Assembly (NCBI GenBank): GCA_027493775.1
Contig: JAOSKE010000003.1
Span: forward strand, 202,350 to 266,349
Direction of reading: 5' to 3'
Origin: Kiritimatiellia bacterium
GTDB lineage: Bacteria > Verrucomicrobiota > Kiritimatiellia > CAIVKH01
DNA: 64,000 nucleotides
A program made the position numbers and the translations under genes. Positions 6,595 through 63,684 of this stretch are shown here, piece after piece. Positions within the stretch are counted from its first letter, which is position 1; every line of letters starts with the position of its first letter. Under the pieces are notes generated by a model. The model searched no databases. It had not been told where the DNA came from and saw only the letters and a list, made by a program, of their open reading frames with translations.

Positions 6595-6948
6595 GGTTTT
6601 ATGCTGTCACGCTAGCGTCATGCAGACCCGATTGCAACGTGTATCGCCTCTCGATAAAGCGTTTTTTGAGCGATTTTCGCCAAAAGCTCGGAGAACGCCT
6701 AGACCCAGGCTTAAGTTCACTTAATTTATCATTTAAACACTTCGGCTTCTGTGCGTTAAAACCCTTCACCTGAATCTTTTTTTAAGTTGCAAGTAAATCG
6801 TATTACAATTAGGTTGGCGAGCGAGATGGGGATGTATGTCTTGCGACCCGGGAATAGTCGCGAATTGGGTGAGGATCGTGAAGAAAATGCGTTCGCACAA
6901 ACTTGAGGTGGTCTGCGTTCAGACGGTTGGATTTTGGGGGGCAGATAA
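6595..6948. other. Divergent intergenic region
   Basis: About 350 bases between two divergent genes. It is AT-rich near 6720-6810 and carries a good -10 hexamer TACAAT at 6804-6809 on the plus strand, with only a poor -35 (TTTAAG) 17 bases upstream. This would give a leader of about 130 bases for the giant protein gene. A GGGGGG stretch at 6937-6942 may act as its ribosome-binding site. No RNA gene was recognised. Confidence 0.4.
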
Positions 6949-12738: not shown

Positions 12739-13461
12739 ATGCACCTGCGAACAAAAAAACGGCAAACCCTCGCTGCGACGCTAATCGCGTTTTGCGTAAC
12801 CTTTGCTGCGGTCAGCTCCGCTGTGGTCATCTATGTCGAAGATTTCTCGGGAGGCGCGCCCGGAACCTACAACGGGCGCAGCGGCACCTTTTCCTACGCG
12901 GGCTACAGCGGCTCAGACTCCTACGAAGGAAGTTTCGCGGCTCAGGGCATCCCCTCCCCGCAAACGGATGCCATTCGCATCACGGACAGCAACTTCCTGC
13001 TGAACTACGCAACGGCATACAACCTCTATAACGATTTCTGGTGGACGTTCGACTTCACCGCAGCCAACGTTGCGCCGTCGGATATCAACATCATCATCGG
13101 CAGCGCTTCGGACACCTTCTACTACACCGGCTCACTCACTGCTAGGGCTGGCTTAAATCACTTGAGCGTGAGTCTGGACAGCTCCAAATGGATCGGCGGA
13201 CCGGGCGTGTACTCCACCTTCGACCTGTCGGGTATCACCTACATTGACATCCAATACAGCCGCAACGGAACAGGGGCGCAGCAGTATTATCTGGACAATT
13301 TCGCCCTCAACGGAAAGGCCACCCAGCAAGGCGGCGATGATGACGAGGGTGGCGGCGGCGGTGGCGGAGCTGTTCCAGAACCAAACACCTTCTTCGTCAC
13401 CGCACTCGCAGGCGCCGCACTCTTCGCACTTCGCCGACGCCTCGTCGCGCGAAACGTATGA
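12739..13461 (+). CDS. PEP-CTERM sorting-domain secreted protein
   Basis: A 240-residue protein with an N-terminal signal peptide (hydrophobic stretch LIAFCVTFAAVSSAVV) and a beta-rich middle beginning VEDFSGGAPGTYNG. A glycine-rich linker leads into a C-terminal PEP-CTERM signal: VPEPN, a hydrophobic helix (TFFVTALAGAALFAL) and the basic tail RRRLVARNV. Such tails are recognised by exosortase (EpsH/XrtA type), which is not in this window. The gene begins 5 bases after the giant-protein stop and overlaps the next gene by four bases (ATGA), so the three are probably one operon of surface or exopolymer proteins. Its own function is unknown. Confidence 0.88.
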   Translation: MHLRTKKRQTLAATLIAFCVTFAAVSSAVVIYVEDFSGGAPGTYNGRSGTFSYAGYSGSDSYEGSFAAQGIPSPQTDAIRITDSNFLLNYATAYNLYNDFWWTFDFTAANVAPSDINIIIGSASDTFYYTGSLTARAGLNHLSVSLDSSKWIGGPGVYSTFDLSGITYIDIQYSRNGTGAQQYYLDNFALNGKATQQGGDDDEGGGGGGGAVPEPNTFFVTALAGAALFALRRRLVARNV

Positions 13462-22201: not shown

Positions 22202-22317
22202 TTTTAAAAATGTGACTGCAAATTTTTGGCCCGAGGCAACTGTTCCGCTACAGAAACGGCGCGCTGAAAACTCTTTGCTTCCCATCATTCTGCAAAAAAC
22301 CTAGACTGCGAACCCTC

Positions 22318-23410
22318 ATGGCTGTAGCAGTGCGACTTGATAGCGTTACGAAGCGGTTCGGCGATCTGACCGTCGTTAGCCGCATCTCGGTCACCATCGA
22401 ACCGGGAGAGCTTTTCTTCCTTTTAGGCCCCAGCGGGTGCGGTAAGACGACGCTGCTGCGTTGCATCGCGGGGTTCTACATTCCAGAGGAAGGCAGCATT
22501 CACATCGGCGACCGCGATGTCACCCGACTCTCGCCGGATGCGCGCGATACAGGGATGGTGTTCCAGAGTTACGCGCTCTGGCCGCACATGACCGTTGCAC
22601 AGAACGTCGCGTTCGGCCTCGAGCTGCGCAAAGTGCCGAAGGCGGAGATGGATCAGCGCGTCGCGGAGGCATTGGTAATGGTCAAAATGACCGAGCGCGC
22701 GCAGTACAAGCCCAACCAACTTTCCGGTGGTCAGCAACAGCGCGTCGCGCTGGCTCGTGCGCTGGTGGTGCGTCCTCAATGTCTGCTGCTCGATGAACCG
22801 CTTTCTAACCTCGATGCAAAACTCCGACTCGACATGCGGACCGAGATTCGGCGCATCTGCAAGCAGGCGGGACTGACTGCGATTTATGTGACGCACGACC
22901 AGAAAGAAGCGCTGTCCATTGCGGATCGGATGGCCATTCTCGATAAGGGGATCATTCAGCAGTGCGGTTCGCCGGAAGAGGTGTATCGCCGCCCCAACAG
23001 CAAATTCGTCGCGAATTTTATCGGCGAAGCAAACTTTGTCGAAGGCAAGATTCTTTCAGTTGAAGGCGACCGCGCGGTGATTGAAACGGCCATCGGACGA
23101 ATTACATCCACCGCGCTGCCCACTGAGCTTGTTCGCGCGGGCGAGCAAGTAGCTGTCTCTCTGCGACCCGAGGTCATTCACGTCGCGGAAGAGCCGCCGA
23201 CCGATGCAAATGTCTTCAACGGGCAAATTCATGGCACTCATTTATCTCGGCGAAGTTGCGCAGCATCAGATCAACCTCGCTACAAACGCCGGCGGCATCA
23301 CGGCGCTAAAGGTGTTTGAACTGAATCCAAAAATCGTCACACGTGACGATGAAATGAAGGACGTACAAATCTGGTTCCGTCCGCACAATGCCGTCGTGCT
23401 GACGAAGTGA
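22318..23410 (+). CDS. ABC transporter ATPase, Fe(III)/spermidine-type (frame interrupted)
   Basis: The nucleotide-binding subunit of an importer. It has Walker A GPSGCGKTT, the Q-loop (MVFQSYALWPH), the LSGGQQQR signature, Walker B LLLDEPLSNLD and the switch His in YVTHDQKEA, followed by a C-terminal regulatory TOBE-like region. Near 23226-23234 the frame changes: removing one base joins VFNGQI to MALIYLGEVAQHQINL and continues to a stop at 23410, giving ~363 residues, the usual length. Uncorrected, the protein ends in a nonsense basic tail. The binding protein and permease genes follow on the same strand. A likely promoter is TTCCCA (22279) with TAGACT (22302). Confidence 0.9.
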
Positions 23411-26965: not shown

Positions 26966-27053
26966 CCCCACCCCACGCGCCTTCTTCAGACGGCACAAAT
27001 TGAAAATAACTTGCATTCCGAAACCCGGTGCTGATAATCCTACAGTTGTGATC

Positions 27054-27116
27054 GTCAGCCGTCAGCCGTCAGCCGTCAGCCGTCAGCCGTCAGCCGTCAG
27101 CCGTCAGCCGTCAGCC
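27054..27116. repeat. Heptanucleotide tandem repeat (GTCAGCC)9
   Basis: Nine perfect, uninterrupted copies of GTCAGCC, ending five bases before the GTG start of the PLD gene. They fill the place where a ribosome-binding site would be expected. Confidence 0.95.
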
Positions 27117-27121
27117 GAAGG

Positions 27122-28950
27122 GTGGCTGATGTTTATCGGGGCCTGACGCTTGCCATCTTTTTCCTTGTCTCTGCGGTTGCCGGGCCGGCTCAGGAGGTCA
27201 CGGTCGCCTTTTCTCCTCGCGGCGATGCGGTGTCCCTGATCCTTCGCGAAATCAAATCCGCCCAGAAGAGCGTGGATGTCGCCATGTTCTATCTGAGCCA
27301 TCAAGAACTGACGGATGCCCTTTGCGCCTTGGCCCAGAATCGCAGGGTGGCCGTGCGCGTGCTGACCGGCACTTGGATGGATCAACCGGCACATCGCCCC
27401 ATCCTTGACCGCCTTGCACAAAACGGCGCGTCAGTCTTCATACTTCCCCTACCCGGCGAGGCGCGCATGCACTTGAAATGCGCGGTGGTCGACGGCGAAA
27501 CTGTCATCGCGGGAACCGCCAACTGGTCGCGCACTGCGTTCGAGCAGAATTTCGAAGACACATTAATTATACGCTCCCCGGCGCTGGGCCACCGCTATCT
27601 GACGCACTTTAATTCGCTGTTTGCCAAAGCGACGCCTTACGACGCACCTACGCCAGACAAACCGCTCGTTCGGATCAAATTCCCTCATACGGAACGCTAT
27701 ACGACATCAAAACGGGGTGCCAGTTTTCAGGCCCCACGCGCCCATAAGATCAGCGGAATAGCACGAGCGGAAGTGTATTTTAATCCCGGCCGCGAGGGCA
27801 TCGGCCAGCTCCTGTCCCAAGTCCGATCCAGCAATCAGCGGATCGATATCGGGATGTATTTGCTGAACGATCCCGGAATTTTACAAGCGCTGGTTGCCAA
27901 GGCTCGTGAGGGTAAATCGAAAATCCGCGTTCTTTTCGATGCGGGTATGATGGCGGGCAAACTACTGGTCCAAGCGCAAGCGCTGTGGGACGCGGGCGCG
28001 GAGATTCACTATTTCCAAAAGGATCGGGATGCCCTTCACCTGAAAACCGCCATCATGGATGGCCGCTTCGTGTGGACCGGCACCGCCAACTGGACAACCG
28101 GCGCCATGGACTTAAACGTCGAGGATATGCTTTTCTTCGACTCGCCCGAGCTGGCCGGCCTCTACACGGCATTTCTCGACGAAATTCAGAAAGAGTGTAA
28201 ATCCTTCGCGTCTTTGGCGCGGTCAACCAGCGTGGCGGCACTCCCCCAGTCGCAAACGGCGCCGCCAACCGACTTCCTGCGGGGCCTGCCGATCACCGGC
28301 CCCCGAACCAACTTCAACAATCTGACCAGAGACCCGATTTTCCCCTCGTTTCCCGCCAGGGCGGCCGTCGCATATCTGGGTGACGAGGAATACCTGCCGG
28401 TTCTGCTGAAACTAATCGACGGCGCTCATCAATCCATCCTGATCTCCATGTTCGTGATGTCGGAGACCACGACGCGCGCCGAAGGGCAGGAGCAAGTTCA
28501 CCGCGCACTGGAACGCGCGGCCGCTCGCGGTGTGTATGTTTATCTGCTGTTGCACATGCCCCCAGCGTTCAGGACCGGCTCGACCAACACCACTCCAACT
28601 GGGCCGAAAAGCTTCGGGCCAAGGGCATTGATGTGCGCCTGAATCTGCCCAACATACACCTGCACACCAAGATAGTCGTGGTGGACCTGGCCAAAATCCT
28701 GATCGGATCGCACAACTGGTCGGAAGGTGCGCTTACCGGGAAAGGCGTTTACGAATCCAGCGCCCTGCTGGTCCTGCCGGAGCAGGATATTCGATTCGCA
28801 GACTACATCTTAAGTCGGCAGACTATCAGCGAGATGCGCAGCAAAGACACATGGCAGTCGGAGATCGCTCTTTTGCGCCACGTCGCGGTCATGAGCTCGA
28901 TCGAGCGCGCGGCCTTTGACCGAGAGCGGGAGGCTCAGGTGCGACAATGA
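27122..28950 (+). CDS. Secreted phospholipase-D-like protein with three HKD motifs (frame interrupted)
   Basis: A corrected product of ~609 residues with a signal peptide (GLTLAIFFLVSAVAGPAQ). It contains three PLD-type HxKxxxxD motifs: HLKCAVVD at residue 117, HLKTAIMD at residue 306 and HTKIVVVD encoded from 28663, each followed by the usual G(T/S)xNW. The superfamily includes phospholipases, cardiolipin synthases and nucleases that usually pair two HKD motifs per active site; three in one chain is unusual. A C5 run at 28559-28563 (needs C6) breaks the frame between LLLHMPP and SVQDRLDQHHSNW. The GTG start directly follows the heptamer repeats. The next gene overlaps it by ATGA. Confidence 0.88.
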
Positions 28951-39293: not shown

Positions 39294-41010
39294 CTAGATT
39301 CGATCCGGCGCTTCAATGCCCAGCAGCGACAAACCGGTCTTCAGTACGCGGGCGGTGATGTCGCAGAGGCGGACGCGACTTTCGCGCACACCTGTTTCGG
39401 CCTTTAGGAAAGGAACGGTCTGATAAAACGTGCTGTAGATTTGTGCGACCTCGAACAGGTATTCACACAACACGTTCGGCTTGTACGATGCCATTGCGCG
39501 AATGACGATGTCAGGGAAACGCGCGAGATGCACCGCTAACCGACGCTCAATCGGTTCACCGAGGACAATAGGCGCATCTTCCGGGCGGCCATCTGGAAAT
39601 TGGTCACGATATTTATCGCGAACACTCGCAATACGCGCGTGGGCATATTGCAGATACGGCGCAGAGTTTCCATCAAGCGCCATCGCCTTATCCCAAGTGA
39701 AGGTCACAAGGCTCTGCGGATTTTGGCTCAAGTCGGCATACTTCACCGCGCCAATTCCAACCGCGCACGCGACTTCACGTTGTGTCGCTGCATCCATTTG
39801 CGGACTGCCCTCCCGCACGATGTCAAATGCGCGCGACTCGGCTTCGTCCAACAATCGTTCCAACTTGATGACATTGCCCTGGCGTGTCGAAAACGTCGCG
39901 TCGGGCAGGCGCATCAGACCAAACCAAACGTGGACGAGCTTCGTGTTCACGCCCAATTTTTTTCGCTACAGCAAAAAACTGTTTGAAGTGAAGTTGCTGG
40001 CGCTCGTCCGTGACATAGATCACGACATCGGGCGCAAATTCTTCGGCGCGATTCAGTACCGTTGCCAAGTCCGTCGTGGTGTAATTGAATCCGCCGTCGC
40101 TCTTGCGAACAATGCAAAGGGGGAGTTTTTCCTCGTCCAATTTTACGACCAACGCGCCCTCGCTGACTTCCGCGAGGCCGAGGGATTGGAGGCGTTCGAC
40201 AACTCCTGCGAGCCGCTCGTTGTAAAAACTTTCACCGCGATGGAGATCGAAGCGAACATCGAGTCGCTTGTAGATTTTCTCAAATTCGCCAAGACTGAGT
40301 TGAACGAACTGTTCCCACAACGCGCGATTTTCTTTGTCGCCCTGTTGCAGTTTGACCAGTTCTGCGCGAGCCTGATTGAGCCACGCTTCATCGTTCTTGG
40401 ATTGCTCGTAACTCTTTACGTAGAGCCGTTCTAATTCCGCAATGGGATCATTCTTCAATGCGTCGGCATCAAGGAAATTACGATAGCCGAGAATTAGAAT
40501 TCCGAACTGCGTCCCCCAATCGCCGAGGTGATTGTCTGCGATCACGTTGTAACCTAGAAAGCGATGCAGACGATCCAACGCATTTCCGATCACGGTCGAA
40601 CGAATGTGCCCGATGTGCATCGGCTTCGCGATGTTGGGACTTGAGTAATCGAGAATCACCGTCTTGCCTGCGCCAACTTCAGGCACACCGAGACGCTCGC
40701 CGAGCTGCATTTGCTCCAAGCGACAAGCGAGCGCACGGTCGTCCAAGTGAAAATTAATAAAGCCCGGCCCGGCAACTTCGAGGCGCGCAACGCCCTCCGG
40801 CAACTGCTCGATTAACTTTTGGGCAATCGCAACAGGCGATTGTTTCAGGCGTTTCGCGACCGCCATCGCCGCGTTGCATTGATAGTCGCCAAATCGCTGA
40901 TCCGTCGCAGGAGGCACGTCCACAGGCCAATCCGACCATTCCAATTCGGGGAACAGTTCGCGAAAGCGGGTTCGCGCCCATGCGCCAAGCTGTTGCTCTA
41001 ATGTGTTCAT
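39294..41010 (-). CDS. argS: Arginyl-tRNA synthetase (frame interrupted)
   Basis: A class I aminoacyl-tRNA synthetase that charges tRNA-Arg. From ATG 41010 it reads MNTLEQQLGAWARTRFRELF, with the catalytic SPNIAKPMHIGHIRST (HIGH) motif. The second half follows in another frame (GVNTKLVHVWFGLMRLPDAT, FSTRQGNVIKLERLLDEA) and ends with the usual anticodon-binding C-terminus. The two halves join at a run of seven T on the plus strand (39957-39963); six would read AVAKKLGVNTKL. Since argS is essential, an uncorrected break is very unlikely to be real. The corrected length is ~571 residues. Confidence 0.95.
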
Positions 41011-41197
41011 TACAAAGTTGTTATGCGCGTTTGAAGATGACGCAAAAAACCGCCTGATCAAAGGCAAAATAACGTGAGGTTTGTGTTAGGCAAGCAAAGA
41101 AAAAACTAATCATAAAACGGTTGCAATCAGGGGGGCATCCTATATTCGCGCCTTCATTGACAGACAGCCATGTCGCGTTAACAGCAGGAGGTTTATC

Positions 41198-51394: not shown

Positions 51395-51811
51395 TTAAGG
51401 TTTCCAAGGATTAATCACGCTCACTCCAGCTGCCTCATACGGCGCGGTATCGCGTGAGGCGACAACGAAGCCTCGCGACACGGCGATTGCCGCTAGGTAC
51501 CCACCCGGTATCGGAAGGCCCCGTCCCTTACTCCGAGCTAATACCGCCAAATCCGCATAATGTCGTGCCGCATCCACATCGAAGGACAACACACGACCAT
51601 TGAACAGGTCCAACAATTGCTCCAGAGCGCGGTTGAGCAGCCTCTTGCGTTTACCCGCTGGCAAAGCACCGATACCAAAAAGCAATTCGGCAAGTGTGAT
51701 GCTCGATAGATATAACGTATCCGCAGATTGCTCGTTCAGCCATGCAACCACACGTGCGTCCGGCACAGGCTTCATTGCCTCGGAAACGACATTCGTATCG
51801 AGAATAATCAT
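51395..51811 (-). CDS. PIN-domain (FitB/VapC-like) toxin
   Basis: A 138-residue PIN-fold protein with the Asp5 start motif MIILDTNVVSE, Glu42 in LAELLFG and Asp121 in ASRDTAPYE. PIN toxins are Mg-dependent RNases, usually cutting tRNA or rRNA. The fourth usual acid, the Asp of the family's PDGYIAA block, is Gly103 here (LPIPGGYLAA), so activity may be lost or reduced. Its ATG overlaps the antitoxin stop by four bases. The pair sits alone between carB and guaA. Confidence 0.88.
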   Translation of the reverse strand: MIILDTNVVSEAMKPVPDARVVAWLNEQSADTLYLSSITLAELLFGIGALPAGKRKRLLNRALEQLLDLFNGRVLSFDVDAARHYADLAVLARSKGRGLPIPGGYLAAIAVSRGFVVASRDTAPYEAAGVSVINPWKP

Positions 51812-52254: not shown

Positions 52255-52291
52255 CCATCATTGTTTAGCTAAGAAATACTATCAACCAACC

Positions 52292-53886
52292 TTATTCCCA
52301 CTCAATCGTCGCGGGGGTTTGGAGCTGATGTCGTACACGACGCGGTTGATGCCGCGGACTTCGTTGATGATGCGGTTGGAGACGCGGCTGAGAAGGGCGT
52401 GCGGGAGGTCGGCCCATTGCGCGGTCATAAAGTCGGTGGTTTGAACGGCCCGGAGGGCGACGACAAATTCATACGTCCGCCCGTCGCCCATCACGCCAAC
52501 ACTGCGGACGGGAAGGAACACGGCAAAGGCTTGCGCAACGTTGTCGTACCAGCTCACGCCAGCCTCATCCCTAGTGGCGCGAAGCTCTTCGATGAAAATG
52601 GCGTCGGCCCGACGCAACAGATCGGCGCATTCTTTTTTCACTTCGCCCAAAATACGCACGCCCAGGCCGGGGCCGGGGAATGGATGACGGAAGATCATCT
52701 CGCGTGGCAGGCCCAGCGCGAGGCCAAGTTGACGGACCTCGTCCTTGAACAACTCGCGCAATGGTTCAAGCAGCTTGAGGTGCAGCGTCTCGGGCAATCC
52801 GCCGACGTTGTGGTGGGATTTAATGACGGACGACTTCTTCCCCGTCGTGCCCGCCGACTCAATCACGTCGGGATAAATGGTGCCCTGCGCAAGCCACTGC
52901 ACAGCGGCATCGGACTGTTTGAGCTTTTCCGCCTCGGCCTGAAACACTTCGACAAATTCGCGCCCGATAATTTTACGCTTCTGCTCCGGATCTTCGATCC
53001 CCGTCAGCTTGCCGAGAAAACGCTCTGCGGCGTTCACATGAATCACGCGAACGCCGAGATTTTTTGCGAACGCCTCCATCACCTGCTCCGCCTCGTTCAG
53101 GCGCAGCAGGCCGTGATCCACAAATACGCAGGTGAGTTGTTTCCCGATCGCCTTGTGCAACAGCGCCGCAACCACGGAACTGTCCACGCCGCCGGAAAGA
53201 CCCAGCAACACCTGTTCGGAGCCGACTTGCTCGCGCACGCGCGCAATCGCTTCATCCGCATAATCACCCATCTTCCAATCCCCGCGTGCGCCGCAAATTT
53301 CGCGCACAAAGCGACGAAGGATGGCCGCGCCCTGCGGGGTGTGCGTCACTTCGGGATGAAACTGAACGCCATAAAATTTACGGCTCTCGTCTGCGATTCC
53401 CGCAATCGGACACGACTCGGTGGAAGCCATGAGAATAAAATTATCGGGAAGTTTCGTCACCTTGTCACCGTGGCTCATCCAGACCGTAAGCAAGCCGTGT
53501 CCTTCTGCATTCTGTCGGTCTTGAATACCGTCAAACAGACGCGTATGCCCCCGTGCGCGCACCTCCGCGTGTCCAAACTCCCGCGTCGTCCCCGCTTCCA
53601 CCGCCCCGCCCAGCTCCCGCGCCATAATCTGCATTCCATAGCAAATCCCCAGCACGGGCCGATTCAACTGAAACAGCGCCGGATCATACTTCGGCGCATC
53701 CGCCTCGTACGCGCTCGCCGGGCCGCCGGAAAGAATAACGCCCGCAACATTTCGCTCAGCGAGTTGCGAAGCAGGCGTATCGCAAGGAAGTATTTCGCAA
53801 TACACATCCAACTCCCGCACGCGCCGCGCAATGAGCTGCGTGTATTGAGAGCCGAAGTCGAGAATAGCAATAGAATCGTGTGCCAT
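52292..53886 (-). CDS. guaA: GMP synthase, glutamine-hydrolysing (frame error at last codons)
   Basis: A corrected product of ~531 residues. The N-terminal class I glutamine amidotransferase starts [20 protein letters not shown], with the catalytic Cys in GICYGMQ and His/Glu in FHPEVTHTP. The ATP-pyrophosphatase motif [16 protein letters not shown] and the C-terminal dimerisation domain follow. It turns XMP into GMP. The normal end PPATIEWE is lost to a G5 run at 52313-52317 (C5 in the gene); with six, the protein ends SSKPPATIEWE and stops at 52292. The broken reading ends [11 protein letters not shown]. The enzyme is essential without salvage. Confidence 0.96.
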
Positions 53887-54065: not shown

Positions 54066-56897
54066 ATGACCCGATGGATGCTTGTTGCTCTGACCGTACT
54101 CTGCTTCAGCCGCGTGACGCAGGGCGATGGGGTGGAAACCTTTGATCGCTCCAACGCGAGAGCGGACAACTACTTCGCAGGCCAGTTCACGGGGAATCAA
54201 GGCGTCATCTGGCAGTATGCGCAGGGTCGCGATACGGACGTGGACCGCGGGGTCTATGCGATCAATGGACGAGGCCTGATCCTCAGCAGCGCCAGCAGCG
54301 CCCGACTCACTTCCGCGCCGATTGCGGGCGGCATTCACGACTTCTCTGTGAATCTCGGCAAAGCATTTCCGGGAAAAGGCCCACGGCAGGTCGAGTTGTT
54401 CATCAACGGCGTATCGAAGGGACGCTCCGAGCCGTTCGATGATGCGCTGGTCCACGAGTTTCGCGTGAAGGACATTGATGTGACGGGCAACATCATCATT
54501 GAGCTGCGCAACATCGGTGGAAAACAAATCGTGCTGGACGATCTCACGTGGTCGAGCATGACCAGCGCGGATGATCCCAACATCTCGTTCACGACGACGC
54601 TGGATTTCGGCGAAATTGACCCCGGAACCGTCGCAACACAATTCCTCGAAGTGGTGAACACGGGAACCTCGCGACCATTGCGCGTGACGTCACTCACCGC
54701 CCTCGACGGCGACACCGCAGCCTTCCACTCGCTCGCCCGCTTTCCGCTCACCATTGCGCCCAATCGCGGCACGGAAAAGATCGCAATGGTTTACACGCCC
54801 GGCGCAATCACGGGCATCGCGCATGTGGCGATTTTCCAGTTTGAGAGCAATGACGCGAGCGACAAGCAAGCTCACATTACACTGCGCGGCTCGACACGAT
54901 TGGGTGACATGAGCGCTTCGGAAATCCAGTACTCACCCGACAACACGGCATCCCCCTACAACGGGCGCGTTGTTGCCATCAAAGGCGTGGTCACGTATGT
55001 GGATGCAAGAGGCTACATGCTCTCCGATGCAGCGGGCGGCCCGTGGAGTGCGGTGTATGTCGAGGATCGCTACCATGCTCCCGATCAAGGCGACGAGATT
55101 CGGCTGGAGGCTCGTGTGAAAGAGGTGGACGGGTTCACGATGCTATCCGACGTTTCCACCTACACACGCCTCAGCGTGTCCAACGCGCTGCCGCCGCCCA
55201 TTACCTTGAGCGCGAAATCCGCGCAACAGGAGCAATACGAAGGCGTGGCGGTGCGGATCGCCAACGTAAAGGTCAGCCACGAACAGGTCTCGCACACGCG
55301 CTGGCAAGTCACGGATGGCACGAACACGATCGCGGTGCTCCACGATCCGCAGCGCCGCCTCTACCGCTACGTCCCGCGTAACGGTGCAACACTGGAAGCG
55401 ATTCAGGGCGTGATGTGGCAGGCGAACGAAATGCGCCTACTACAAGTGCGCGACGACGACGATTTTATCGGCCGCCCGATTCGCCACTATGCGCTGCACG
55501 GCCTGGTCATCACGCCCGACGGACCGCGCACGAATTGGTATGTGGAGGTGCTGGACGACACGATCGTCCAGGTTGGGCCCGACGCACCCACAACAACAGT
55601 CTATGACACCCAAGCCGTCCTTTTCCCCGGGCTCCTCGACACACACAACCATCCAAGCTGGAACTCCTTTCCCGCCCTGACCTTTGCGGACATCCCCTTC
55701 CGCCATCGCAACGAATGGGCACGAACGCCCGAGTATAAAGCGTGGGCCGCACGGCGGAATGAGGTCATTCGCAATCCTGCGGTGCAGGATTTCAAAACGG
55801 CCATGATCAGCAAATACGGCGAGTTATTGGAACTCATGGCCGGCTGCATCGCGATTCAAGGGATCTCGGGCAACACGGAATACGCGCATCCTGATTTTGG
55901 CCCGATGAATCTGGAGGGGTTTCCGACGCGCATCGCCTCCGAGGTCTTCCCGATGGATATGAAACCCGCGCAGCGCGCGGAAATGAAGAAGCGCATCAAC
56001 GGCGGCGCGGTGAAGGCCTATCTCATCCACCTGAGCGAAGGCACAGACGAATTTGCGCGCTCGCAACTCGATACGTGGACCCACTGGGGCATGTTGACAA
56101 AAGAGACGGCCATCATTCACGGAACGCCCTACGGAACCAACGAACTGCGCAAAATCGCGGCGGTCGGCGCGTCAATCATCTGGGCGCCGAAATCCAACAT
56201 GACGCTCTATCACGGCACGGCGGACATTCCGCTCTATCTGAAGTACGGCATCAATGTCGCCATCGCGCCGGATTGGACGCCGAGCGGCGGCTACAACATG
56301 CTCGAAGAGTTGGGCTATGCGTGGAGGCTGAATCAAAGCAACTTTGTCGGATCCCTCACGCCGAAAGACCTCGTGGACATGGCCACGATCAATGCCGCGC
56401 GCGCTGTCGCGCTGGGCGATCGTTACGGAAAAATCGCGCCGGGCTATAACGCCGGGCTCGTCGTGGTCCCCTATCTCGGCGGCGACCCCTATCTCTCGCT
56501 CATCAACGCCCGGCCCAATTCCGTGTTGCTGACGATCATTGATGGAACACCGCGCTACGGCGATGCCGCGCTCATGGCGCAAATGGGTTGCACCGGGGAA
56601 GTCATTCACGCCTGGGGCACGGCCAAGCTGCTAAACCTGGAATTCGATCATCCCTTCCTGAGATACGGCTCCCAGCGCTTCGCGGCGATCACCTCCGCAC
56701 TCGCCAACGCACACGCAGCACTCGCGCCGACCCGGGAATTGACACACGACGAGCTGCAGTTTCTCTCGCTTGATTTGCTGGAGACCGCTGCGCCACCCCG
56801 TTCGTCCGTGACGATGGATCAATCGCTCTGGCGCATCTGGACGAACGCTCCACAGCGTCTTGAATCAAAGGAACCGGCGCTGCAAACCCGCGAATAA
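54066..56897 (+). CDS. Secreted multidomain amidohydrolase, paralogue 1
   Basis: The start at 54066 (MTRWMLVALTVLCFSRVTQG) follows AGGAG and gives a signal peptide. Domains in order: a beta domain (residues ~25-160), a choice-of-anchor D-like module (LDFGEIDPGTVATQFLEVVN), an OB-fold-like module (NGRVVAIKGVVTYVDARGYM), then a ~430-residue metal-dependent amidohydrolase. The metal site shows HxH at residues 527/529 (LDTHNHPSWN), HLSEGTD, IIHGTPYG and IAPDWTPSGG, as in the ATZ/TRZ group (aminohydrolases of cyclic nitrogen compounds). About 943 residues. Its substrate is unknown, and an extracellular form with three front modules is unusual. A paralogue follows 445 bases downstream. Confidence 0.85.
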   Translation: MTRWMLVALTVLCFSRVTQGDGVETFDRSNARADNYFAGQFTGNQGVIWQYAQGRDTDVDRGVYAINGRGLILSSASSARLTSAPIAGGIHDFSVNLGKAFPGKGPRQVELFINGVSKGRSEPFDDALVHEFRVKDIDVTGNIIIELRNIGGKQIVLDDLTWSSMTSADDPNISFTTTLDFGEIDPGTVATQFLEVVNTGTSRPLRVTSLTALDGDTAAFHSLARFPLTIAPNRGTEKIAMVYTPGAITGIAHVAIFQFESNDASDKQAHITLRGSTRLGDMSASEIQYSPDNTASPYNGRVVAIKGVVTYVDARGYMLSDAAGGPWSAVYVEDRYHAPDQGDEIRLEARVKEVDGFTMLSDVSTYTRLSVSNALPPPITLSAKSAQQEQYEGVAVRIANVKVSHEQVSHTRWQVTDGTNTIAVLHDPQRRLYRYVPRNGATLEAIQGVMWQANEMRLLQVRDDDDFIGRPIRHYALHGLVITPDGPRTNWYVEVLDDTIVQVGPDAPTTTVYDTQAVLFPGLLDTHNHPSWNSFPALTFADIPFRHRNEWARTPEYKAWAARRNEVIRNPAVQDFKTAMISKYGELLELMAGCIAIQGISGNTEYAHPDFGPMNLEGFPTRIASEVFPMDMKPAQRAEMKKRINGGAVKAYLIHLSEGTDEFARSQLDTWTHWGMLTKETAIIHGTPYGTNELRKIAAVGASIIWAPKSNMTLYHGTADIPLYLKYGINVAIAPDWTPSGGYNMLEELGYAWRLNQSNFVGSLTPKDLVDMATINAARAVALGDRYGKIAPGYNAGLVVVPYLGGDPYLSLINARPNSVLLTIIDGTPRYGDAALMAQMGCTGEVIHAWGTAKLLNLEFDHPFLRYGSQRFAAITSALANAHAALAPTRELTHDELQFLSLDLLETAAPPRSSVTMDQSLWRIWTNAPQRLESKEPALQTRE

Positions 56898-57342
56898 GCG
56901 CAACCAATTCCGCGAATGTTCGCGAATTACTTTTCAGCCCGTTTGCAGCAACATCCCGATTAACAAGGCGCTGCAAAGACCAAACGAAGGCTTGCGCCAG
57001 CGATTTCGCCCAACGCTTCTGGCAATCAGCCGGAGTTATGTCTTGAATCGGGCGACGTCAAATCCCGCTCTTCACCCTCGTCAAACCGCCCCTTGCTGCG
57101 AGAAACGCTGGCCGATTCATCCACTCTCTGCAGACATTGCCGCGACAGGGCGCAGACTGACACCAAGCCCCCACGACACCTCCAGCCCACCCCGCTATTC
57201 TCGGCGCGGGTAGGGCGCACTGCTGGTTCCATCCACCGTATCAAAGAAATCGCCCCGCACCCCGACCAACAAAGGCTCACCAATCCCGATTGCGAAAACG
57301 AAGGGCAACGGGTAGTATTATTATCTTGTCAAGGGAGCTACC
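56898..57342. other. Gap between the two amidohydrolase genes
   Basis: 445 bases with no gene I can support. It contains the promoter of the second paralogue near its end (57290-57318). The rest looks like remnants or spacer; no RNA structure or repeat was recognised. Confidence 0.5.
57290..57318 (+). promoter_or_regulatory. Promoter of amidohydrolase paralogue 2
   Basis: TTGCGA (57290-57295), 17 bases, TAGTAT (57313-57318), then an AAGGGAG Shine-Dalgarno at 57330-57336 and ATG at 57343. Confidence 0.55.
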
Positions 57343-60300
57343 ATGAGAAGATGCGCATCCATTTTTCTGACCCTTCTCGCAACCGGATTCGCCGCGTGGA
57401 GCGATGGTCTGGAAACATTCGATAATGAAAATGCGCCCCCAGCGGTGTATGCGACAAGCAGCTTCGTCGGGAACAATGGCGTTACCTGGAGCTATGAACT
57501 TTGTCGCGACGCCAGCGCGGATAGCGGCGCCTATGTGATTAACGGCGCGGGGCTGATGTTCAATCCGTCGTCCGCTTCCAAACTTTATTCGTCCGCAATT
57601 CCCGGAGGCATTCGCGATTTTTCAGTGAAGCTGCGCAAGGGGTTCACGGGAGCAGGCCTGCGGCAGGTTGAGCTGTTCGTCAACGGTGTTTCCATCGGCC
57701 TCTCGGAGTCATTCGACGACACGCAGATTCGTACGTTCAGCGTGCAAAACATCAACGTCGCCGGGAATGTCGTGATCGAATTGCGCAATGCCAGAGTGAA
57801 ACAAGTTGTGCTTGATGACTTGAGCTGGACGAGTCTGACCGGCGGCGATGACCCGAATATCTCTTTCTCTTCGCCTTTCGACTTTGGCGAGATTTCTTCC
57901 GGCTCGGCCGCAACGCAAACACTGACGGTTCTAAACACCGGCACGTCCAAGACACTCAATGTCACCGGGTTTTCACCCGTAAGCGGCGATACGACCAAGT
58001 TCAGCACGCCGACCACCTTCCCGCTCAACATCGCGCCGAACAATGGGTCACAGACCATCCAGCTCGTGTACACGCCGGGCAATGTCACCGGCGCGATGCA
58101 CTCGGCCGTTTTCAACCTCAACAGCAATGATCCCGGCGACGGGGCCGCGCCGATTACGCTGACCGGCAAAACACCGCCGGGGATGCTGACGATCTCCAAC
58201 ATTCAATACAACGCATCAAGCACCAACTCGCCGTACAATGGCCAACTGGTTTCTGCGAAGGGCATTTGCACCTACAATGATCGTTTCGGCTACATCCTCG
58301 CAGACGCGGGTGGAGGAGCATGGAGCGGGATTTATGTTAAGGACGACAGTCACGGACCGGATATCGGCGACGAGGTGCGGGTCAAAGGGTGGGTGGCCGA
58401 GCCGGACAATTTCACAACAATCACGGGCGTTACGGACTATGTTCGCCTGAGCGTCGGGAATACGTTGCCAGCGCCCGTCGTGGTCAACGGGCTCGCTGCT
58501 CGCTCGGAAATGTATGAAGCCGTCCTAGTGCGGGTGAACAATGTCACCGTAGATAATCAAAAGGTCTCGGGCGCGGTATGGCAGGTATCCGATGGGGCGA
58601 ACAGTCTGCAAGTGCTTCACGATTCAACCCGGCGGCTCTATCGCTACGTCCCAAAAAACAACGCCACCCTCGACGCGATTCAGGGGGTGATGATCCAGGC
58701 GGGTGGAACGTGGCGACTGCAAGTGCGAGACGACAAAGACTTTATCGGCCGTCCCGTTGTCCACTACGGCCTCAAGGGTGTTGTGATGACGCCGGGCGGA
58801 CCGCAAACCAACTGGTACGTGGAAATCCATGACGACGACATTGTGTACGTCGGCCCCAACGCGCCGACGGTGACCGTGTATAACACGAGCGGGGCTATTT
58901 TCCCTGGCTTGATAGACACCCACAACCACCAAGGTTGGAACTCCTTCCCCACGCTGCAATTCAACGCCGCTCCATACGGGCACCGGGATGATTGGGGCGA
59001 AAGCGACGCGGAATACACGGCGTGGAAATCAAAGCGAACAAGCGTACTCAACCACGCGGCGGTGCAAGACTCGACAAAGTTCACGGTCGGCAAATACGGC
59101 GAAATTCTTGAACTGATGGCGGGATGTATCGCGATTCAGGGCATGTCGTTCAACATCGAACACTCGCACCCCGATTCCGGCATCATGAATCTCGAAGCGT
59201 TTCCGAACCGCATCTACACCGACATCTTTCCGTGGAATATGACGGCCGCAAATCGCAGCAACCTCATGCGTCGCATCAACGGCGGCGCCGTGCAAGCCGC
59301 CCTGATCCACCTCAGCGAAGGAACGGACAGCGTCGCCCGCGCCCAATTCGATACGTGGTACAACTGGGGAATGCTGACGAAGGAAACCACGATCATCCAC
59401 GGCGTTCCCTATCGCACCAATGAAGTGGACAAGATCGCGTCCGTCGGCGCCTCCATCGTCTGGTCGCCGAAGTCGAATATGCGGCTCTACCACGGCACGG
59501 CAAATATCCCACTCTACAAATCGCGCGGCGTGAACCTCGCCATCGCACCGGATTGGACGCCAAGCGGAAGCTACAACATGCTTGAGGAATTAGGCTACGC
59601 GTGGCGACTCAACCAAACCATTTTCTCCAACGCGCTGACTTCAAAAGACCTCGTGGATATGGCGACGATCAATGCCGCGCGCGCGGCAGCAATTGAGAAC
59701 CGCTATGGAAAAATTGAAGTGGGCTACAACGCGGGTCTCGTCGTCATGCCCTACTCCGGCGGCGACCCGTACCTCGCGCTCATCAACGCGCGACCGCGCA
59801 CCGTCCTCTTAACCATCGTGGATGGAACGCCTCGCTTTGGTGACAAGGCATTGATGACCTCAATGGGGTTCACCGGCGAAACGATCAATGCGTGGGGCAC
59901 GACGAAGACGCTGAACCTCGTGAAAGATCACCCCTTCCTCACCTACGGCAACGAAACTTTCGCGTCCATCACTTCCGGCCTCGCCACCGCGCACGCGACA
60001 TTGACGCGAACCGGCTATGTGGATACGGAAGAGCTGCAGTTCCTCTCACTCGGCCTCTTGCAAGGCGGCCCCGATGACGTGGTGCCGTTCATCGCAGACG
60101 CACCCTCACCGCTCCAGCGGATGGACGAATCTACACCAACAACAAACCCGTCACGCTAACATTCCGAAGCCAAGATTTCTGGGACAACGACACCGACCAC
60201 TGGGAATTGCAGCACAAACAAATCGCGCTCGTGCCCGCATCGAATCCGACACAAGTGTTGCAGGTCATTGCGACAGATCGGCCCAACACGAGGTCGAACG

Positions 60301-60827
60301 AATCCATCACGTTCAATCTGAACTTCCGTGGCCTGTACACGAATTACTACTTCCGCTTCCTGACTTCAGACCTCTACGACAATGTGCGGACTTCCGTCTT
60401 CACCAACGTGAAACTCACGATACGGCCCGCTGCCGACGATCAGGATAACGACGGACTCCCGGATGCGTGGGAAATGATTCTCGTCAACGCAGATCCCAAC
60501 GATGGTATCCAATCCATCTTTGACGTGCATCCCGAGGATGACTTCGACGGAGATGGGTTCACAGAGGCGGAAGAATACTACGCCGGCACCTCTCCGACTG
60601 ACCCAACCTCCTACTTCCGCGCACAGAGCATCGCGTCGCCGATGACCGGTCAACTGGTGATTCAATGGCCCAGCGCAACCAACCGCACCTACACCCTGCT
60701 CCGCTCCACCAATCTTCTTGGCACATGGAGCACGGAGGCCAGCGGCATTCATGGCACCCCGCCAATAAACACCTTCACGACCACCGCTCCCGACAGCATT
60801 AAGGCCATTCGGTTGCTGATTGAATAA
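57343..60827 (+). CDS. Secreted multidomain amidohydrolase, paralogue 2, with Ca-binding tail (frame interrupted)
   Basis: Same domain order as paralogue 1: a signal peptide (CASIFLTLLATGFAAWSDG), beta domain, choice-of-anchor D-like module (FDFGEISSGSAATQTLTVLN), OB-like module and amidohydrolase (IDTHNHQGWNS, HLSEGTD, IIHGVPYR, IAPDWTPSGS). Unlike its neighbour it continues past a frame break near 60122 (DAPSPLQR to GRIYTNNKPVTLTFRSQDF) into a beta region. Then come thrombospondin-3/EF-hand-like repeats (DQDNDGLPDAWE, DDFDGDGFTEAEE) and a C-terminal beta module (TYTLLRSTNLLGTWS). The corrected length is ~1,161 residues. The Ca repeats suggest attachment or folding outside the cell. Confidence 0.85.
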
Positions 60828-60903: not shown

Positions 60904-60940
60904 TCCCCACCTACTCGTTGCTGTACGGCAAGATCGTACG

Positions 60941-61052
60941 GCACATCGAGAGTGGCGCGAGGGGTCTGGCCCGATGACCGCCCAGCAACCTGTTCTGGAG
61001 CATACAGAATAAGGTGCCAAAGCCAGCCCCGGAGTTCGGGGAAACGATGAGC
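60941..61052 (+). promoter_or_regulatory. SAM-I (S-box) riboswitch
   Basis: The leader carries the conserved S-box core: AGAGTGGCGCGAGGGG, CTGGCCCGATGACCGCCCAG, CAACC, then AAGGTGCCAAAGCCAGC and GAAACGATGAG. The closing P1 stem pairs GCACATCG (60941-60948) with CGATGAGC (61045-61052), one mismatch. It lies between the promoter and metY, so SAM binding should turn down methionine synthesis. The expression platform is not obvious: GAGGAATTGGC and GCCAATCCCCTC could pair downstream, perhaps acting on the GGAGGAG ribosome-binding site. Confidence 0.88.
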
Positions 61053-61170
61053 CTCATAGAGAAGAGGAATTGGCGCTTGTTTCCCTCGTGCGACTCGGCT
61101 GTCTGCTGGGCCATTTAAGCCAATCCCCTCACGGATTGATTGCAACAACTACATAGTGGAGGAGTGCCAA

Positions 61171-62457
61171 ATGAAACTTGAAACCTTGTGCGTCCATGGT
61201 GGAACGCAGCCCGACCCAACAACCCTGTCGCGAACCGTGCCCCTGCACCGCACGTCGTCCTACGTGTTCAAAAACACGGAGCATGCGGCGAACCTGTTCG
61301 CCCTGAAAGAGCTGGGCAACATCTATACGCGCCTGCAAAATCCGACAACGGATGCGCTGGAACGCCGCATCGCACTACTGGAAGGCGCGCCGGAGCTGGG
61401 CGGACTGGCAGCGGCTTCTGGAATGGCGGCCATTTTCAATGCCGTTTTTACATTGGCCGAAGCGGGCGACAACATTGTATCCGCTCAAAACTTGTACGGT
61501 GGAACGTACACGCAGTTCCACGACAGCCTCCCGCGTATGGGCATCAAGGTGAAGTTTGTGAACTCGCAGGATCCGCAGAACTTCGAAAAAGCAGTGGACG
61601 ACAAGACCCGCGCGTTCTACGTCGAAGCGGTCTCCAATCCGGCGCTCGAAGTGACCGACATTGAGGCCATCGCAAAGATCGCTCACGCGCACGGCGTGCC
61701 ACTGATCGTGGACTCGACGTTTGCGACGCCGTATCTGCTCCAGGCGATTTCGTTTGGGGCGGACATCATTGTCCACTCGCTAACCAAGTGGCTCGGCGGA
61801 CACGGCATCGGAATCGGCGGCATCGTGATTGACTCCGGCAAGTTCAATTGGGCGGCGGGCAAGCATCCCCTCTTTGATCGTCCGGACGAGTCGTATCACG
61901 GCATTCGTTGGGGGCATGACCTCCCGGCGCCACTCGCGCCGCTGGCCTACATCCTGCGTATGCGCACGGTTCCGCTCCGCAACATCGGCGCGGCGATTGC
62001 ACCAGACAACTCGTGGATGATTATCCAAGGCATCGAAACCTTGGCGCCCCGGATGGAGCGTCACTGCCAGAATGCGCTCGCGGTTGCGCAACACCTCAAG
62101 GGGCACAAGCTCGTTGAGTGGGTGCGCTTCCCGGGACTCAAGGATGATCCGGAATATCAGCGCAATCTGAAGTATCTCAAGGGCGAGGGCGGAGCGATGG
62201 TCGTGTTCGGCATCAAGGGCGGCAAGGAAGCGGGGGCGAAGTTTATCAATCACCTCAAGCTCTTCTCGCACTTGGCGAACGTCGGCGATGCGAAGAGCCT
62301 TGCCATTCATCCGTCCACCACAACACACTCACAACTGAATGATGAGCAACAGCGCGAAGCAGGCATTGTGCCTGAGCTGGTCCGTCTCTCCATCGGCATC
62401 GAGCACATTGATGACATCGTGGAAGACATTGATCAGGCGCTTGAGGCTGCGCATTAA
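61171..62457 (+). CDS. metY: O-acetylhomoserine sulfhydrylase
   Basis: A 428-residue PLP enzyme of the Cys/Met metabolism family. It begins MKLETLCVHGGTQPDPTT, has the YTRLQNPTTDALERRIALLE and GMAAIFNAVF blocks, and the PLP lysine in IVHSLTKWLGGHG, ending FINHLKLFSHLANVGDAKSL and STTTHSQLN. It makes homocysteine directly from O-acetylhomoserine and sulfide. The ATG at 61171 has GGAGGAG seven bases upstream, so it is preferred over an in-frame GTG at 61156. It is under the SAM-I riboswitch and is followed after six bases by metX, which makes its substrate. Confidence 0.95.
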   Translation: MKLETLCVHGGTQPDPTTLSRTVPLHRTSSYVFKNTEHAANLFALKELGNIYTRLQNPTTDALERRIALLEGAPELGGLAAASGMAAIFNAVFTLAEAGDNIVSAQNLYGGTYTQFHDSLPRMGIKVKFVNSQDPQNFEKAVDDKTRAFYVEAVSNPALEVTDIEAIAKIAHAHGVPLIVDSTFATPYLLQAISFGADIIVHSLTKWLGGHGIGIGGIVIDSGKFNWAAGKHPLFDRPDESYHGIRWGHDLPAPLAPLAYILRMRTVPLRNIGAAIAPDNSWMIIQGIETLAPRMERHCQNALAVAQHLKGHKLVEWVRFPGLKDDPEYQRNLKYLKGEGGAMVVFGIKGGKEAGAKFINHLKLFSHLANVGDAKSLAIHPSTTTHSQLNDEQQREAGIVPELVRLSIGIEHIDDIVEDIDQALEAAH

Positions 62458-62463
62458 CCACAC

Positions 62464-63684
62464 ATGGACGACACAGCATCACAGATCACGTCCGACCTCG
62501 GCGAGGTGAAGACCCAGTTCTTCACCTTCGCCGACGAACGGCGGCCGTTTAACTTTCGCCGCGAGCAGGATTCATTCTGGCCCGTGACGCTGGCCTATGA
62601 AACGTATGGCCGTTTGAACGCGGGGAAGAGTAATGCCATTTTGCTTTTCCACGCGCTCAGCGGAAGTCAACACGCGGCGGGAATCAACCGCAGCGTGCGG
62701 GAGGACATTGACAAACGCTGGACGGAGGAAATGCACATCGGCTGGTGGGACGAGTTCATCGGCCCCGGCAAGGCGCTGGACACCGATCAGTATTTTGTGA
62801 TCTGCGCCAACTATCTCGGCGGCTGCTACGGCTCCTCCGGCCCGGCCAGCATCAATCCGGCAACAGGGCAGCCCTATGCCAAGGATTTTCCAACGGTCAT
62901 GTTCAGCGACATCGTGGACTCCCAAGTCCACCTGCTGGATCATTTTAAAATCAAGAAACTTCATGCCGTCATCGGCGGTTCGCTCGGCGGCCTGTGCGCC
63001 ATTAACTTTTCGGCGCGCTATCCCGACCGCGTGGAGGCCGTCGTCTCCATTGCTTCGGGCGTGGAAACTTCCATTCAACAACGGATCTCGAACTTTGAAC
63101 AGATCACCGCGATTGAAGACGACAAACACTACAAGGGCGGAAACTATTACGAAGGCCACCCGCCCAATCGCGGCCTGGCGCTGGCGCGGATGATCAGCCA
63201 CAAAAACTACATTTCGCTCGACGCAATGGAGCATCGCGCGAAGAACACGGTCATTCAGCCGGAACTGGACAAGAAAAAGTGGTATTGGATCGAACACAAG
63301 GTCGAGTCGTACCTGCGCAAGCAGGGTCTCGAATTTGTGGAACGATTCGATGCGAACACCTATCTGCGCATTGTTGATGCGTGGCAAAAGTTCGATCTGC
63401 TCGGCGACACGGGCGCATCTTCCTTCGTTGAGATGTTCAAAGCCTGTTCCGCACAGCGGCATCTGGTTTTCACAATCACCGATGACGATTGCTTCTCCTT
63501 GAAACAGCAGGAACAGCTTTGTAGCGGGCTACAGGAAGCGGGCGTTCCGTTCCAACACGTCATCGTACATTCGCTCAAGGGTCACGACTCATTCCTTGTT
63601 GAGCCGGAGCTATACACGGCAAGCATCGCGTACTTCCTCCAAGGCTCTGGAAATCGCGACGCAGCAAAGCGAGCCAAGGCGTAA
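62464..63684 (+). CDS. metX: Homoserine O-acetyltransferase
   Basis: A 406-residue alpha/beta hydrolase of the MetX family. The nucleophile elbow is GGSLGGLCAINF, with the other triad members in FTITDDDCF (Asp) and KGHDSFLVEP (His). It makes O-acetylhomoserine from homoserine and acetyl-CoA, the substrate of MetY just upstream. Some relatives use succinyl-CoA, and sequence alone cannot exclude that. Its stop codon shares one base with the next ATG (TAATG). No shift is seen. Confidence 0.95.
   Translation: MDDTASQITSDLGEVKTQFFTFADERRPFNFRREQDSFWPVTLAYETYGRLNAGKSNAILLFHALSGSQHAAGINRSVREDIDKRWTEEMHIGWWDEFIGPGKALDTDQYFVICANYLGGCYGSSGPASINPATGQPYAKDFPTVMFSDIVDSQVHLLDHFKIKKLHAVIGGSLGGLCAINFSARYPDRVEAVVSIASGVETSIQQRISNFEQITAIEDDKHYKGGNYYEGHPPNRGLALARMISHKNYISLDAMEHRAKNTVIQPELDKKKWYWIEHKVESYLRKQGLEFVERFDANTYLRIVDAWQKFDLLGDTGASSFVEMFKACSAQRHLVFTITDDDCFSLKQQEQLCSGLQEAGVPFQHVIVHSLKGHDSFLVEPELYTASIAYFLQGSGNRDAAKRAKA

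Follow-up and report, generated by a model that had tools for sequence, protein, structure and literature searches.

The aminohydrolases that act on purines and triazines are known to be cytoplasmic. The mononuclear ATZ/TRZ/guanine-deaminase branch to which they belong carries an HxH, H, E, H, D set of residues as its motif, and water attack proceeds via a single zinc, as in guanine deaminase and TrzN. Elsewhere in the amidohydrolase superfamily, the iota-carrageenan sulfatase iota-CgsA is described as having a predicted signal peptide and an N-terminal part followed by a C-terminal amidohydrolase barrel (PMC4144425). MetalloBSH of Bilophila wadsworthia is a secreted, metal-dependent bile salt hydrolase of 945 residues, one of several in the species; its authors aligned it with YtcJ/Amidohydro_3, and report a conserved lysine that is often carboxylated and data that may fit a two-zinc site (PMC13081902). 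Here, we focus on two tandem genes, open reading frame 1 (ORF1) and ORF2, in a 64,000-nucleotide stretch of a Kiritimatiellia bacterium genome (assembly GCA_027493775.1, contig JAOSKE010000003.1, forward-strand positions 202,350–266,349), hereafter the window. The pair is a real, rare and uncharacterised exported-type variant of this known enzyme superfamily. An earlier note on this DNA, made from the sequence alone, had called such enzymes usually cytoplasmic, which is fair as established knowledge of the purine/triazine branch, although published members of the superfamily include secreted, multi-domain ones (the carrageenan sulfatase and metalloBSH). Export as such is not new, because secreted amidohydrolases of other kinds have been published; what appears to be new, judging by an open-access literature search (titles and abstract openings of the papers listed) that found no description of an exported enzyme of the purine/triazine branch, is export within that branch together with the modules described below.

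ORF1 and ORF2 share a layout in which a start resembling a signal peptide is followed by three beta modules and then by the amidohydrolase domain. They are 59% identical and are sisters with support of 100/100 in a tree of 18 rows, in agreement with the earlier description of tandem paralogues. Only ORF2 has, in addition, a C-terminal beta domain and a TSP3 tail, and a search 3′ of ORF1 found no relic of such a tail, so the tail is indeed confined to the second gene. The features are as follows (window coordinates).

54066–56897, + strand: ORF1, exported-type amidohydrolase without the tail, 943 residues (the same frame is already open from 53949).
55644–56273 (first to last codon), + strand: ORF1 metal-site residues H527, H529, H655, E658, H685 and D736, in alignment columns common to relatives.
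57343–60159, + strand: ORF2, exported-type amidohydrolase, 938 residues in the assembled frame.
57394–57840, + strand: ORF2 module 1, a jelly roll with a fold like that of carbohydrate-binding modules (CBMs); best fold match 8x8h, Z 13.2, root-mean-square deviation (rmsd) 2.8, 130 residues aligned, model weak at residues 21–80.
57850–58182, + strand: ORF2 module 2, an ASH/HYDIN, choice-of-anchor D type immunoglobulin domain (PF22544, E 8e-06, and fold alignment).
58192–58752, + strand: ORF2 module 3, a beta module, OB-like by weak profile matches; predicted local distance difference test (pLDDT) score mostly 79–94.
58735–60102, + strand: ORF2 catalytic domain as modelled (profile and fold alignments).
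58921–59553 (first to last codon), + strand: ORF2 metal-site residues H527, H529, H656, E659, H686 and D737 (alignments).
60101–60117, + strand: −1 frame break between ORF2 and its tail (codon signal and homology).
60105–60827, + strand: ORF2 tail in the −1 frame, comprising a beta domain, two TSP3-like repeats and a last beta domain.
60435–60575, + strand: the two TSP3-like repeats, of calcium-binding type (PF18884 match).

Both proteins match PF01979 (Amidohydro_1) above its cut-off of 25 bits (ORF1, 67.6 bits, E 1.5e-18; ORF2, 64.9 bits, E 1e-17), and the full HxH, H, E, H, D set is present in both copies. An amidohydrolase superfamily profile matches all 17 catalytic domains of the pair and its relatives (E up to 0.01). 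The metal-site residues are unchanged in all 11 rows of alignment A1; in the 17-row alignment A2, where some rows are incomplete, no change occurs at H656, E659, H686 or D737, and conservation at H527 and H529 is 90% or more. The metal site is therefore intact: loss of its residues, which the earlier note had named beforehand as its refutation, was not seen in sequence or alignment (structural models here are of low confidence), and the residue set and profile matches bear out the ATZ/TRZ-like catalytic domain that it proposed. When a profile of the 17 catalytic domains was compared with PDB sequences, E. coli guanine deaminase came first (1.6e-13), followed by deaminases of the methylthioadenosine/S-adenosylhomocysteine (MTA/SAH) type (3.3e-13 to 4.2e-13) and AtzA (9.2e-13). 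The alignment sets the H-L-x-E of the query over HLCE of GuaD, and TrzN E241Q is named in PDB titles. In a low-confidence model of the catalytic domain alone (mean pLDDT 53.1), the core, at model residues 155–332 only, matches the fold of adenosine deaminase 4dyk (Z 16.2, rmsd 2.6, 175 aligned), with further matches to 3hpa (Z 16.1), TrzN (13.8) and guanine deaminases (13.1–13.3). The NCBIfam matches, taken as the best 25 of 29 and of 28 families for the two ORFs, are led by deaminases and TRZ/ATZ-type families, all far under their cut-offs; TIGR02967 guanine deaminase is not reached (59.4 and 62.9 bits versus a cut-off of 375.4). By sequence and by model, the catalytic domain appears to resemble the guanine, adenosine/MTA and triazine aminohydrolases.

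The N-termini of ORF1 and ORF2 consist of a short charged stretch followed by a hydrophobic one, from which export of both proteins is predicted. A hydrophobic run lies near the start of ORF1, of ORF2 and of every row whose 5′ end is uncut by a contig end (14/14, among 17 aligned rows and counted without a control set; for 7 of the 14 the start position was picked inside a longer open frame), in keeping with the signal-like starts noted earlier. Both proteins are probably exported and catalytically competent.

The earlier note had raised a polymer or nitrogen compound of the environment as a possible substrate. As an overall explanation we tentatively propose, at a little under an even chance, that both proteins are exported hydrolases that depend on a metal and belong to the guanine/adenosine/triazine aminohydrolase branch. 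The sequence supports a signal-like start, beta modules of surface type and a complete one-metal ligand set with an acid/base glutamate (Glu). A single zinc would activate a water molecule, which would then attack a ring carbon that carries an amino group or a leaving group, while the Glu would shuttle protons; ammonia (or another group) would in this way be removed, outside the cytoplasm, from a nitrogen heterocycle that is probably purine-like, and the beta modules may anchor the enzyme at the surface or on a polymer. Deamination of a purine-like base is a somewhat more tentative proposal; the substrate class is taken solely from the nearest characterised enzymes. Several observations weigh against this explanation. 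Sequence matches to known deaminases are mostly limited to the second half of the barrel, and the HxH stretch falls outside the best alignments. The metal-site geometry is unsupported by the models because these are poor in the catalytic region (mean pLDDT 60.7 for whole ORF2 and 53.1 for the domain alone), and the PDB scores pick no substrate because the guanine, adenosine and triazine enzymes are tied. The carbohydrate-binding-type jelly roll and the carrageenan-sulfatase precedent, moreover, point to polysaccharide. The alternative that the enzyme fold has lost its activity and now serves a surface or binding role is quite improbable: it would suit the low similarity to characterised enzymes and the departures from 140 columns in which every other row present agrees (20 in ORF1, of which 3 are gaps, 2 of them at the end of the excised stretch; 15 in ORF2, 1 a gap), but all metal ligands and the Glu are retained in both copies and in the relatives.

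The three beta modules of the earlier note are borne out by the ORF2 model (built from the 17-row alignment) and by fold and profile matches. Module 1 (residues 18–166) is a jelly roll with pLDDT blocks of 44–73 at residues 21–80 and 71–86 at 81–160; besides 8x8h, it aligns with CBM36, CBM22, CBM35 and CBM4 rows (Z 10.6–11.6), and meprin and adhesin domains reach comparable Z. Module 2 (170–280) is ASH/HYDIN-like (7som, Z 12.8), and its PF22544 match is above the cut-off in ORF2 and below it in ORF1. Module 3 (about 284–470) is all-beta and is the best modelled part (pLDDT blocks 79–94 except at residues 421–440). It matches the N-terminal part of NCBIfam ExeM/NucH at E 1.9e-05 in ORF1, 0.0011 in ORF2 and 8.8e-10 in relative L046, all under a cut-off that is set for the whole protein; DUF5689 matches in relative L049 (E 0.016). 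A sequence comparison of module 3 with the PDB gave nothing convincing (best E 0.88), and the fold alignment barely covered that stretch.

These modules have prompted a second reading, in which the exported enzymes act on polysaccharide by removing acyl, sulfate or amide groups and the modules bind sugar polymers. The alignment of module 1 with carbohydrate-binding jelly rolls favours it, as do a weak hit to CBM_6 from relative L055, below the cut-off (E 0.0065), and the barrel of the iota-carrageenan sulfatase behind its predicted signal peptide (PMC4144425). So does an L-rhamnose mutarotase homologue beside the gene in two related loci, where it is read through with the amidohydrolase gene in L054 (3–2009, E 4.1e-33) and follows it in L056 (1–1563). 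The neighbours of related loci were compared among themselves, unannotated, and as such they neither show nor exclude a polysaccharide cluster. We nevertheless consider action on polysaccharide unlikely, though worth keeping in view: meprin and adhesin domains score as well as the CBMs, and the catalytic matches are aminohydrolases of nitrogen heterocycles. Module 1 itself says little on substrate because other, unrelated large proteins in the class also carry it (L010, L012, L013 and, in the same genome, L004). The best NCBIfam match of the OB-like module, the N-terminal part of the secreted DNases ExeM/NucH (under cut-off), raises a further and very improbable idea, that the family acts on extracellular nucleic acids or debris; the OB-like module would present nucleic acid and the guanine-deaminase-like domain would deaminate its bases, yielding ammonia and altered DNA or RNA. 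A nuclease link by way of module 1 was rejected, as a scan of six relatives with the surface DNase family NF052644 hit L046 alone (N-terminal part, E 1.2e-22, below cut-off).

The catalytic domain of ORF2 is followed by a change of frame. In its own frame ORF2 reaches a stop at 60159; the tail occupies an open frame at 60078–60827 that is −1 relative to ORF2. Guanine–cytosine (GC) content at third positions changes frame between about 60100 and 60150, and a codon model switches frame at 60117. ORF2 tracks relative L056 in its own frame until about 60102, and the tail frame aligns with L056 without gaps from 60105 (108 residues, 47 identical). DNA alignment of the ORF1 and ORF2 ends left the position ambiguous, and it was resolved by the relatives. 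The join that the earlier note placed near 60122 does exist, but homology sets it near 60104, where the reading frame breaks, probably owing to an assembly indel. Chance does not account for the open tail frame: of 2000 approximate dinucleotide shuffles only 2 lack a stop across its 249 codons, and 13 of 15 relatives match it (E 2.6e-19 to 3.1e-34; the exceptions are L052, whose 3′ end is cut, and L053, which has no tail). PF18884 (TSP3_bac) matches in the tail frame with 31.7 bits (E 1.3e-07, cut-off 25 bits), the two repeats lying at 60435–60473 and 60537–60575. Gene and tail share one open frame in eight of the nine other carrier genomes, and the ninth ends at a contig end.

The origin of the break is most likely an indel in the assembly, because argS, found just once in the genome, shows a similar split. 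That gene lies in two overlapping frames (41085–39826 and 39965–39297, − strand) with a break at about 39959, and an argS profile search of the genome found only these two overlapping pieces, at 39297–41085, and no other copy. The argS split is itself likely an assembly indel and serves as a warning on frame breaks in this genome; against this, a second, intact argS could be missing, since the genome is 92.63% complete. It is improbable that the break is a real mutation, with ORF2 a truncated enzyme beside an orphan tail. In its favour, the tail is lacking from about the same point in ORF1 and in L053, and several TSP3 tails of this genome lie in short or overlapping frames; but the ORF2 tail retains its codon signal (third-position GC 0.70 versus 0.71 for ORF2), its homology and a stop-free frame, and the same kind of break in the only argS found points to assembly. 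A programmed −1 frameshift joining ORF2 and tail has the right sign of shift and a candidate site, an in-frame A AAC CCG heptamer just 5′ of the ORF2 stop (seen by eye). It is disfavoured, to the point of being extremely improbable, because tail-frame homology begins at 60105, some 40 bases upstream of this heptamer, the only candidate slippery site noticed, and because the downstream RNA is less folded than shuffles (z +2.18); eight relatives, moreover, need no shift. ORF2 and its tail are probably one protein in the living cell.

Other possible frame breaks were seen in the window, where a codon scan without a calibrated false-positive rate flagged eight same-strand pairs, some of them ordinary gene overlaps. 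Four of these pairs were read, argS being one of them; by eye and by codon signal, the other three genes look broken too: an ABC transporter ATPase (22216–23407, + strand, near 23219), a phospholipase-D-like gene (27038–28947, + strand, near 28552) and a TPR/membrane protein (4712–6606, − strand, near 5494).

The tail was described earlier as calcium-binding. TSP3-like repeats and a C-terminal beta domain are indeed found on ORF2, but the module is common in the genome and not special to the enzyme. There are 67 TSP3_bac matches in this genome, and TSP3 is combined with the last beta domain at 37 places including the ORF2 tail; the TSP3 tail is generic here. In the same genome, L068, L071 and L074 have TSP3 tails in short or overlapping frames, and L076 has an in-frame stop (3391–3393, reverse-complement coordinates) within the TSP3 tail region of another protein. 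Among relatives, L042, L046, L049, L054 and L056 keep the first tail domain and lack the TSP3 part. Endings of the PEP-CTERM-like form V/I-P-E-P were seen by eye in L042, L046, L049 and L056; PF07589 gave nothing above its cut-off in these four, with L042 alone matching (E 0.044), and L049 has a sub-threshold match to a PEP-CTERM family (E 0.0011). The genome of the window contains two exosortase-like genes and ten PEP-CTERM matches. One PEP-CTERM match lies in the window at 13369–13440 (+ strand), inside a 275-residue frame.

The earlier note had asked whether the pair is common in related genomes. Full-length relatives are in fact rare: within the class, 10 of the 345 genomes searched carry them, the window's own genome among these, the other nine having one copy each at E up to 1e-30; none was found in seven other genomes of its own family, two of them of its own genus. 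Among 387 genomes drawn from the phylum, seven had a match at E up to 1e-20, namely its own genome, five of the same-class carriers and one with module 1 only. On named contigs, a search with alignment A1 found 15 loci, titled Kiritimatiellae, Verrucomicrobia(ota), Opitutia, Spartobacteria, Chlamydiae or ‘bacterium’, and a single-protein query gave no relative. The genome and named-contig counts are not additive because several loci are the same contigs (L051 is L007, L055 is L008 and L050 is L009). GMC4.concoct.297 has two members on separate contigs. No match was found among 50,697 phage records, and two scans of viral contigs found no relative.

By the tree, the duplication that produced the pair is younger than the separation of its lineage from the others sampled (support 100/100). 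Its branch lengths are 0.49 for ORF1 and 0.17 for ORF2, and unique changes in ORF1 exceed those in ORF2 against all 15 outgroups, with chi-square above 3.84 against ten of them. ORF1 seems to have changed faster, with the reservation that the 15 outgroups are not independent and that chi-square ranges from 0.5 to 10.9. ORF2, as the TSP3-tailed member, would probably be the ancestral form, and ORF1 a duplicate that probably lost its tail after the duplication. This account is weakened by L053, which ends after the catalytic domain as ORF1 does, so that ORF1 is not the sole tail-less member.

The ORFs of the window and of the related loci, L043 and L052 excepted (13 of 15 loci covered), were compared all-against-all, unannotated and with up to three links per ORF; no neighbour of ORF1 or ORF2 proved common to the relatives. 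Some related loci have neighbours in common (L045 with L047; L047 with L051; L049, L054 and L056 with one another), and a window ORF about 31 kb away from the pair is matched by ABC transporters of L055. A link to the divergent gene beside ORF1, a GMP synthase gene by eye (52282–53886), was rejected, as L007, L008 and L009 have other neighbours (by eye). Also nearby are a small VapC/PIN-domain-toxin-like protein (by eye; 51395–51811, − strand) and a SAM riboswitch (RF00162, 60.5 bits; 60940–61053, + strand) ahead of two methionine-synthesis-like genes (by eye; 61156–63684).

The closest non-exported family recovered sits on proteobacterial plasmids. Thirty plasmid records match; among the best 20 of these, the first 13 cover 24–41% of the query at 27–31% identity and seven from Leisingera 11%. 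In a direct comparison, a Variovorax plasmid protein is 31% identical over 401 residues (E 4e-46). One relative, on a Sinorhizobium fredii plasmid (L059, 4830–7832), lies 27 bases ahead of a gene that matches the phage-defence model PD-T7-1 (E 2.7e-57), the one match when PADLOC was run on five plasmid neighbours; genes for AbiH and a restriction endonuclease lie close by. Seven further plasmid loci were inspected: nuclease, Fic or toxin–antitoxin genes occur within 5 kb in four of them and do not in two, and one locus is unannotated. A link of this sister family to defence is possible on these counts, which have no control for background frequency. For the amidohydrolases themselves PADLOC returned nothing (five given, including those of L059, L062 and L063). 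Two UDG-like readings were set aside: a Variovorax neighbour at E 0.008, under cut-off, and a similar reading by eye of the Azospirillum N-terminus, which had no BLASTP match to that neighbour.

If the proposed function is right, some Kiritimatiellae and Verrucomicrobia free nitrogen from heterocycles, or modify polymers, extracellularly. The activity is directly testable, because homologues in one open frame exist.

Compared with described systems, the pair is nearest in its profile to E. coli guanine deaminase (PDB 6ohb; TIGR02967), the best PDB match by a narrow margin, with which it shares the HxH, H-L-x-E, H, D pattern; it differs in its signal-like start, its three N-terminal beta modules and, in ORF2, its C-terminal modules. 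With the MTA/SAH adenosine deaminases (PDB 4dyk and 4f0r) and TrzN/AtzA it has in common the modelled core fold and the sequence pattern, whereas export and the modules set it apart, and identity in rows of this branch is 13–23% over the aligned parts. The plasmid ‘amidohydrolase family protein’ of Variovorax, Azospirillum, Rhizobium and Sinorhizobium has, by eye, the same HNH, HLxEGxD and DWxPSG-type motifs, but it has no Pfam beta module and, in the two proteins read by eye, no obvious signal peptide; the long N-terminal part of the Azospirillum protein has no Pfam match. Two secreted enzymes resemble the pair by description only: iota-CgsA in its signal peptide, N-terminal part and amidohydrolase barrel (PMC4144425), and metalloBSH as a secreted amidohydrolase (PMC13081902).

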